Made by a program: the position numbers and the translations under genes. The notes beneath the pieces were generated by a model. That model was given only the letters and a program-made list of their open reading frames with translations. It made no database searches and was not told the origin of the DNA. From contig DRHW01000026.1 of NCBI GenBank assembly GCA_011053005.1, positions 1 through 64,000 of the forward strand: DNA of 64,000 nt, in the 5' to 3' direction. Positions 23,690 through 25,289 of this stretch are shown here, piece after piece; within the stretch, counting starts at the first letter, position 1; the number at the start of each line of letters is the position of its first letter. Source of the stretch: Methylophaga sp. (GTDB lineage: Bacteria > Pseudomonadota > Gammaproteobacteria > Nitrosococcales > Methylophagaceae).

Positions 23690-23791
23690 TGAGAAATGGT
23701 TAACTCCACGCTTATACTCAATAATAATCAAGCACATTGAGCAACAATAGAACAAAATATAGCACCCATTTTTTAGTCTTCGGTATTTGTA

Positions 23792-24739
23792 ATGACAAGC
23801 CAACAAGCTAACTTAGAAAATATAACGCCTATCGTGGTGGTCGACATTTATAATGAAAATGACGATACCGTTGCCGATAAAACCTATTGTGTAATGGCAA
23901 CGATTGATCCTGATTTGGTTGAGGCTTCGCCGCTGTCTAATGCTGATCTAGCTGAACAGCATGACGATATCATTCCTGATATAACTTATTGTGTATTGGC
24001 GACGCTTGATGGTGATACGTCTGAAATTTCGCCATTGATTGTCGCTGAACTATCTGAGCAAATCGATGAGGCTGTATCTGACAATGCTTATTGCGTCGTC
24101 ACCACGATTGAAAATGATTTAGTCAATATCGCACCGCTCGTCGTGATTGATATCTATGACCAAATTGCCGATGCATTGGCCGATAAGGGGTATTATATTG
24201 CACCCGAATTGCTACCTGAAACGATGACGGCTTCTCTACATCAACATGTTACACTGCTTACTACTGATGATTATCAGACTGCGGGGATCGGCCGTCAACA
24301 AGCATTTCAACTCAATCAACAAATTCGCCGTGACGAAACTCGTTGGCTAGCAGAAGATAATGCCATTGATAACCAGTATCTCGATTGGATGGCCAGTTTA
24401 CGGATTGAACTCAATCAACGTTTGTTTATGGGCTTGTTTAAATACGAAGCACATTATGCACATTACCCTCCCGGTGCTTTTTATCAACGTCATGTTGATG
24501 CCTTTAAGGGACAGTCTAATCGCGTATTAACCACATTGTTATACCTCAACCCTGATTGGAAAACCGCTGATGGTGGTGAACTACTGATCTATCATCCTGA
24601 AACCGAAGAAATCATCGAACAAATACTGCCTGAATACGGTAAATTTGTTGTATTCCTTAGCGATCAGTTTCCACATCAAGTGCTCAAAGCCAATCGGGAT
24701 CGTTATAGCATTTCCGGTTGGTTTCATATCAATAGTTAA
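23792..24739 (+). CDS. 2OG-Fe(II) oxygenase (prolyl 4-hydroxylase-like) with a fourfold N-terminal repeat
   Basis: 315 residues. The C-terminal half is a dioxygenase of the SM-20/P4H type: iron ligands His234-x-Asp236 (YQRHVDAF), distal His295 (FPHQV) and a 2-oxoglutarate-binding Arg at about 304. The N-terminal 137 residues hold four copies of one unit with an exact 34-residue period: prolines at 13, 47, 81 and 115, and the pair Y-C at 32-33, 66-67 and 100-101, changed to Y-Y at 134-135. The fourth copy (DALADKGYYIAPELLP) is the natural beginning of the enzyme domain, so three extra copies seem to have been added by tandem duplication. The likely substrate is a protein prolyl or similar side chain; this is inference. 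The gene is 10 bases before def. Confidence 0.82.
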   Translation: MTSQQANLENITPIVVVDIYNENDDTVADKTYCVMATIDPDLVEASPLSNADLAEQHDDIIPDITYCVLATLDGDTSEISPLIVAELSEQIDEAVSDNAYCVVTTIENDLVNIAPLVVIDIYDQIADALADKGYYIAPELLPETMTASLHQHVTLLTTDDYQTAGIGRQQAFQLNQQIRRDETRWLAEDNAIDNQYLDWMASLRIELNQRLFMGLFKYEAHYAHYPPGAFYQRHVDAFKGQSNRVLTTLLYLNPDWKTADGGELLIYHPETEEIIEQILPEYGKFVVFLSDQFPHQVLKANRDRYSISGWFHINS

Positions 24740-24749
24740 CGAGGAAAAC

Positions 24750-25289
24750 ATGACGATGAACCATACAGACTTTGAATTAATTGAATTAGGTCATCCTCAC
24801 CTTCGCCGTCACGCTGAAGTCGTTAAAGATGTTTCAGGTACTGATACTCAACATTTATTAGATGAACTATTAGCCTTTGTACTAGCAAAAAATGGCGTCG
24901 GTATTGCTGCGCCTCAAGTTGATATCAACCAGCGTATTTTCATCATGTGTTCTCGGCCTAACTCACGTTATCCTCTCGCACCCGATATGCCGCCAACATT
25001 TATTATTAATCCAGAAATCATCTGGCGTTCTGATGAAACTGAAAAAGGTTGGGAAGGTTGTTTAAGTTTACCGGGGATCCGAGGCCTCGTACCGCGTCAT
25101 CAGGCGATAAAAGTACGTTATACCACTCGGTCAAATGAATCTATTGAAGTAGAATATACTGGCTTTGTTGCACGCATTTTTCAACATGAATTAGATCATC
25201 TTGACGGTATCGTTTATCTTGATCGGGTTGAAAGCACGCATGAAATCATGATGGAAAAAGAGTGGTTGAAACTGTTCACTAGTAACTAA
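24750..25289 (+). CDS. def: peptide deformylase
   Basis: 179 residues from ATG 24750, which has the SD GAGG at 24741-24744. A longer in-frame reading starts inside the upstream gene and is rejected. All three deformylase motifs are present: GVGIAAPQ (49-56), E102-G-C104-L-S and H146-E147-LDH150. The enzyme removes the N-formyl group from new proteins with a bound metal ion. The usual partner fmt is not next to it, so this may be an additional deformylase of the type found away from the fmt operon. Confidence 0.92.
   Translation: MTMNHTDFELIELGHPHLRRHAEVVKDVSGTDTQHLLDELLAFVLAKNGVGIAAPQVDINQRIFIMCSRPNSRYPLAPDMPPTFIINPEIIWRSDETEKGWEGCLSLPGIRGLVPRHQAIKVRYTTRSNESIEVEYTGFVARIFQHELDHLDGIVYLDRVESTHEIMMEKEWLKLFTSN

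Follow-up and report, generated by a model that had tools for sequence, protein, structure and literature searches.

The substrate of the Pseudomonas prolyl hydroxylase PPHD is EF-Tu, which it hydroxylates on a proline of the switch loop. The structure 4IW3 is that of the Pseudomonas enzyme with EF-Tu, and the metal ligands of PPHD are H124, D126 and H183 (PMC6235002). In a related enzyme helix 1 is among the helices of the fold, and strand 1 lies in its major sheet (PMC7864055). In human PHD2 a labile disulfide joins Cys208 to Cys201 and moves the finger loop (PMC5830721), and oxidised Cys208 has been detected by proteomics (PMC10944602). The enzyme family is known, and what is new in the gene described here is a leader of four units derived from the enzyme itself. 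In the open-licence literature we found no paper on a Methylophaga prolyl hydroxylase or on an N-terminal repeat in a bacterial 2-oxoglutarate prolyl hydroxylase.

The window, by which we mean the whole stretch of 64,000 nucleotides analysed, comes from a Methylophaga genome (G000, 2.89 Mb in 44 contigs) and carries a gene for a protein, W, in which the 2OG-Fe(II) oxygenase domain PF13640 is matched at 7.7e-23 over residues about 121-315. The nearest solved structure is 4IW3, at E 4.3e-37 for the window protein alone with the runner-up at 9.3e-13, and at 1.4e-55 with a profile that includes the window protein. His234, Asp236 and His295, the HXD...H metal ligands, are invariant in all 15 aligned homologues and also align with the 4IW3 chain. 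Arg304 is likewise invariant (15/15) and stands opposite an Arg of that chain; we take it to be the 2OG-binding arginine on the eighth core strand. The beta2/beta3 finger loop (164-181) aligns with A53-D70 of PPHD without an internal gap, the loop limits being those given in PMC6235002 and the 4IW3 chain offset of 22 being derived from H124. The original prediction of a 2OG-Fe oxygenase is thus borne out by domain, structure match and ligands, and by sequence we assign the window enzyme to the PPHD type, that is, to the EF-Tu prolyl hydroxylase-like 2OG-Fe oxygenases.

With regard to EF-Tu itself, the motif NAPEE with its proline is present in both EF-Tu genes of G006, one of the genomes with the array described below, and the EF-Tu sequences obtained from G024 and G028 have it as well. 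The EF-Tu gene of the window genome (G000:C20:4-144) runs into a contig end and covers about 47 residues, perhaps reflecting duplicate tuf genes.

A second peptide deformylase gene follows the hydroxylase gene (24750-25289, + strand). A deformylase lies directly beside the hydroxylase in five of eight genomes (G000, G001, G006, G015 and G030), with another elsewhere, and in the other three (G024, G002 and G020) one deformylase was found, not beside the hydroxylase, in drafts that may be incomplete. Hydroxylase and deformylase are thus a recurrent gene pair.

The N-terminal array

The features of the gene are given in Table 1. When the first 145 residues are compared with themselves at an offset of 34 there are 39 identities in 111 positions, and over offsets 5-74 the total score is positive at 34 and its multiple 68 only. 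The best ungapped segment, residues 1-102 against 35-136, scores 211, where 1000 shuffles do not go beyond 53. Compared in register, each of the six unit pairs of the window protein scores higher than all of 5000 shuffles, and the same holds for the six pairs of G001, which with G006 is one of two further genomes of the genus that have the array.

Table 1. Positions in the window of the hydroxylase gene, its parts and the spacer before it
Feature	Position	Strand	Remarks
Spacer; counterparts in G001 and G006 hold UbiA relics	23690..23791	+	window spacer by DNA alignment only
PPHD-like 2OG-Fe(II) prolyl hydroxylase gene with N-terminal array, 315 aa	23792..24739	+	ORF, ATG to TAA
Repeat unit 1, residues 1-34	23792..23893	+	starts with the ATG start codon; Cys33
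Repeat unit 2, residues 35-68	23894..23995	+	first codon ATG; Cys67
Repeat unit 3, residues 69-102	23996..24097	+	first codon TTG; Cys101
Repeat unit 4, residues 103-136, native leader	24098..24199	+	first codon GTC; Tyr135 replaces Cys
Rest of catalytic domain, residues 137-315	24200..24736	+	finger loop 164-181; aligned ligands His234, Asp236, His295, plus Arg304

The original prediction described a four-fold N-terminal repeat with an exact period of 34 residues, marked by Pro at 13, 47, 81 and 115, by Tyr-Cys at 32/33, 66/67 and 100/101, and by Tyr-Tyr at 134/135. All of these residues are present, the self-match of 211 against a shuffle maximum of 53 agrees with it, and the similarity is significant, shuffles never having reached the observed scores. 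The phase has to be changed, as the unit was placed from residue 12 or 13 but the similarity begins at Met1 and ends at 136. For the same reason the fourth copy holds as proposed through residue 136, the "YC" strand, but not for its last 11-12 residues, where there are 0-2 identities. Residues 137-147 are identical to the corresponding stretches of the other units at 0-2 of 11 positions, and residues 103-136 share 2 identities with 137-170, so the period stops at 136. By alignment to PHD2, unit 4 is helix 1 and strand 1 of the catalytic fold.

At the DNA level the window units are identical at 43-62 of 102 bases (in the proline-anchored phase of the original prediction), and Tandem Repeats Finder at score 40 lists no array at this gene. 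Identity at an offset of 102 drops to background at gene base 306 in all three array species, the rows of G006 being out of register before its 3-base insertion. In G001 and G006 the units open with ATG, ATG, ATG and GTT, where the window has ATG, ATG, TTG and GTC. From the matching phase of 1-34, 35-68, 69-102 and 103-136 and the drop at base 306, we read the duplicated piece as codons 1-34 of the gene, the start codon among them, with an uncertainty of a few codons. The anatomy of the array is firm. An assembly artefact was considered and rejected, because the window units differ from each other at 40-59 of 102 bases and the array is common to three genomes.

No Pfam family is matched above its cut-off in residues 1-136, the best being SepQ at E 0.041 (13.4 bits, cut-off 22.9), and NCBIfam has no match there. 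A search of residues 1-118 against 57 genomes of the family finds the three arrays, the self-match of unit 4 and otherwise weak hits (E 0.05-0.09). Of nine loci of these hits that were read again, six have a whole EF-Tu gene, L037 a partial EF-Tu, and L036 and L040 other genes. The weak EF-Tu matches run through an LEGDTSEI stretch among the alignments listed, of which L041 is not one. Mimicry of EF-Tu by the array was considered, and we take the likeness as chance, the matching stretch being different in G001 and G006.

Distribution and origin

The hydroxylase gene was found in 24 of 29 genomes of the genus, and in three of the 24 (G000, G001 and G006) it has the array, with four units each; matches in the 21 other homologues begin at query residue 100 or later. 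Of 63 genomes of the order, 49 give a match, and again these three alone start at residue 1. In an even draw of 369 genomes of the class there are 73 with a match and the window's own alone starts at residue 1, G001 and G006 not being among the matches of that draw. Judged by match limits, homologue matches begin near unit 4 in the genus, order and class searches alike; a distant homologue may still carry an unrelated domain ahead of that point. Loci were taken as the best 30 matches per search, and the weaker homologues of order and class are judged from match limits.

Self-comparison of the open frames at 74 distinct loci (79 were scanned, before merging L001/L032/L042, L002/L031/L033 and L003/L034) gives a 34-residue repeat in the three array places only, which score 133-227 against 42-53 for the best of 100 shuffles. 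L050 is barely above its shuffles (25 against 23) through nine residues at offset 25, which is taken as chance, and L080, which is rich in proline and alanine, ties with them (45 against 45). L028 and L030 lack part of the N-terminus and so say nothing about the repeat. The homologue of G031 (G031:C24:8728-9310) matches as two pieces in different frames, perhaps owing to a frameshift or a sequencing error. A PPHD-like gene with PF13640, 51% identical, is also found near a contig end in the IMG/VR viral collection (L062 25-606).

One relative is of particular value for the origin of the array. The hydroxylase of G024 (L004) has exactly one 34-residue leader, which stretches from Met to GYCI and is in phase with the repeat. 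It is identical to unit 4 of the window protein at 18 of 34 positions and to units 1-3 at 8-12, none of 5000 shuffles being as good in any of these comparisons, and DNA alignment shows its 5' flank to be related to that of the array genes. Because there is one leader in register and the flank is related, we take G024 to show the state before duplication. The original prediction of three diverged duplicates of the enzyme's own leader, with the fourth copy as the start of the catalytic part, agrees well with this gene.

The upstream gene fixes the start codon. In G024 a UbiA prenyltransferase gene is in place (intact 3' end at L004 2-370) and its stop overlaps the hydroxylase start (ATGA). Relics of the UbiA 3' end lie upstream of the array hydroxylases of G001 and G006 (L031 2800-3004 and L003 1362-1504; tblastn 7e-7 and 1e-8, three spacers searched), and it is because both end at the same overlap point as in G024 that the start can be placed. 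The window spacer gives no UbiA match by tblastn and aligns with the spacers of G001 and G006 as DNA. The possibility that the start is wrongly annotated was rejected, since the array has the codon pattern of coding sequence and its ATG and flank are related to the overlap start of G024.

A tree of 44 catalytic domains accounts for the array with a single change (support 75/85; 76% of 200 bootstrap trees) and places the array species, together with the single-unit G020, G002 and G024, in a starred clade of six (97/98). The tree leaves out L028, L030, L062, duplicate loci and the class-level L063-L088, and L055 is also missing, apparently through the length filter. The shared count of four and the tree support suggest that the array arose, most simply, once, in a common ancestor of the three related species.

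A profile of the 24 single-unit leaders matches the arrays in register with weak full scores, which in bits against the shuffle maximum are 6.4 and 11.0 for the window protein, 8.3 and 8.3 for G006, and 9.3 and 6.8 for G001, the shuffles being those reported by hmmsearch (1456, 1457 and 1382 of 2000 per protein). The best single stretch of the window protein has 2.2 bits, below the 99th percentile of the shuffles at 2.8. The case for descent from the leader thus rests on unit 4 and G024, not on the profile.

Divergence, constraint and possible roles

The outer units of the three species all have D24, D29 and C33 (9/9) and the pattern [YF]-C-[IV] (9/9), while the inner unit 4 has A24, G31 and Y33 (3/3). 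The G024 leader has Ala24, Gly31 and Cys33, and also Asp29. Among the 24 single-unit relatives position 33 is Cys in 8 and Ile in 16. Each of the three array proteins has three cysteines, one per outer unit and none elsewhere, but in four of the eight single-unit relatives with this Cys it is likewise followed by no other, which makes a catalytic part free of Cys unremarkable. Residues 1-102 of the window protein have 22 D/E and 1 K/R, and with one Cys in each of units 1-3 the repeats are indeed acidic and cysteine-bearing, as had been proposed.

With the direction of change read from the single-unit gene of G024, the outer units appear to have departed together from the fold-forming leader while retaining the Cys, and the inner unit to have done the reverse. 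That Asp24 is common to the outer units suggests that they all go back to a single outer copy which had already diverged.

Between the window gene and that of G001 the differences over residues 1-102 fall at codon positions 1, 2 and 3 in the numbers 34, 15 and 55. For residues 12-113 pN/pS is 0.325, 0.383 and 0.287 in the three comparisons (bootstrap 0.22-0.46, 0.25-0.56 and 0.14-0.58), against 0.124, 0.142 and 0.122 for residues 148-313. Values for unit 2 are 0.57 and 0.65 when the window gene is one of the pair and 0.05 for G001 against G006, and for the inner unit 4 they are 0.12, 0.20 and 0.40, the last being G001-G006 (0.395). The dN values are 0.27, 0.27 and 0.08 for the array against 0.09, 0.10 and 0.05 for the catalytic part. 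These figures come from three species of which two are close, and for that reason column conservation has little power. By codon-position differences and pN/pS the array as a whole is translated and constrained, less so than the enzyme.

The account that we favour, with a little more confidence than an even chance would give, is an in-frame duplication of the leader leading to an acidic, thiol-bearing tail for regulation or docking. The first 34 codons, comprising the start, a short head, helix 1 and strand 1, were duplicated in tandem to give four copies, of which the one adjoining the catalytic domain kept the fold-forming residues. In the outer copies position 24 would have become Asp and Gly31 been lost with the Cys kept, and the inner copy would then have lost its Cys. 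The outer copies are translated, under real but weaker constraint at the protein level, and would probably no longer be part of the catalytic fold. The tail may tether or tune the enzyme through a partner or substrate complex, with catalysis presumably remaining with the catalytic domain. An acidic thiol tail is favoured because the outer copies lost residues of the fold-forming leader.

It is possible, but we think rather unlikely, that the copies accreted passively, as tolerated duplications with no specific job, in which case the constraint would come down to the avoidance of aggregation, degradation or a poor start of translation. Change is faster in the array than in the catalytic part, so that the array may matter little, unit 2 is weakly constrained in the comparisons with the window, and the array is limited to one small clade, with 21 other homologues in the genus lacking it. 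Against it, pN/pS for the whole array stays under 1 in each of the three comparisons (upper bootstrap limits 0.46-0.58), and Cys33, Asp24 and Asp29 are kept in every one of the nine outer units.

Another reading concerns the cysteines, which may have moved out of the catalytic copy so that the enzyme is regulated when they are oxidised, through cross-linking or another change of the tail. Such a switch draws on the location of all three cysteines of each protein in the array (C in 9/9 outer and Y in 3/3 inner units), on the alignment of their position with Cys208 of human PHD2, and on the effect of the labile Cys201-Cys208 bond on the finger loop, as described in PMC5830721. Sixteen of the 24 single-unit relatives have Ile at that position, and the Cys-free catalytic part recurs in four of the eight Cys-bearing ones. 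We consider the switch unlikely and keep it as a minority reading because no unit has a counterpart of Cys201 and oxidative dimers of PHD2 are ascribed to cysteines of the core fold (PMC4703963). It is doubtful also that the three-unit acidic thiol array, with its PHD2-Cys208-like Cys moved from the catalytic copy, is a redox or docking module that gates hydroxylation of EF-Tu.

Since unit 4 consists of helix 1 and strand 1, elements of the major sheet (our alignment, and PMC7864055 on a related enzyme), one could imagine the outer copies folding to replace or extend the edge of that sheet, within or between molecules, and the [YF]-C-[IV] pattern, kept in all nine outer units, would favour this. 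This is very improbable, as the outer units have lost A24 and G31 and carry Asp at 24, and as both predicted models are at pLDDT 34-35 (34.7 and 33.7, two AlphaFold2 predictions from two-row alignments).

We give still less credence to binding of Fe(II) or another metal by D24, D29 and C33 of the outer units, for instance to feed the active site. The three residues are in all nine outer units and the tail is acidic, but Asp29 and Cys33 are already in the single-unit leader of G024, so that D24 is the sole novelty of the array among them, and neither Pfam nor NCBIfam has a match above cut-off in the array.

We regard as barely worth entertaining the idea that the duplicated start codons let translation begin at unit 2 or 3 as well and so yield a series of isoforms. 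Unit 2 opens with ATG in all three species and unit 3 does so in two, the window having TTG there, and the anti-SD energies ahead of units 1 and 2 are the same in G001 and G006 (-3.0). Against this, the energy in the window is positive ahead of units 2 and 3 (0.3 and 0.6), and unit 4 opens with GTC or GTT.

Comparison with described enzymes

The array offers a clean, small case of a protein growing a new N-terminal extension from its own beginning, in which the states with one and with four copies can both be seen, as can the segment that was duplicated and the way in which features were afterwards divided between copies. The nearest gene for comparison is that of G024 (L004), which encodes the same enzyme with a 34-residue Met-to-GYCI leader in register with the array unit, but has one unit instead of four, and this sole unit has the Cys that is replaced by Tyr in unit 4 of the array proteins.

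PPHD, the EF-Tu prolyl hydroxylase of Pseudomonas putida (PDB 4IW3, 4J25), aligns with the catalytic domain over nearly its whole length, with the same HXD...H ligands and a finger loop of equal length (18 residues). However its crystallised chain of 229 residues aligns from residue 34, which leaves no room before it for a three-unit array.

Human PHD2 (EGLN1) is of the same catalytic superfamily with the same order of elements, and its Cys208 aligns with the position of the array cysteine (numbering from PMC4709589), but the Cys201 partner is absent from the array proteins. Its N-terminal extension holds a MYND zinc finger (PMC6235002) and not a set of copies of the catalytic leader. Should the array regulate its enzyme, bacteria would have a counterpart of the N-terminal extensions seen in the animal oxygen-sensing prolyl hydroxylases.
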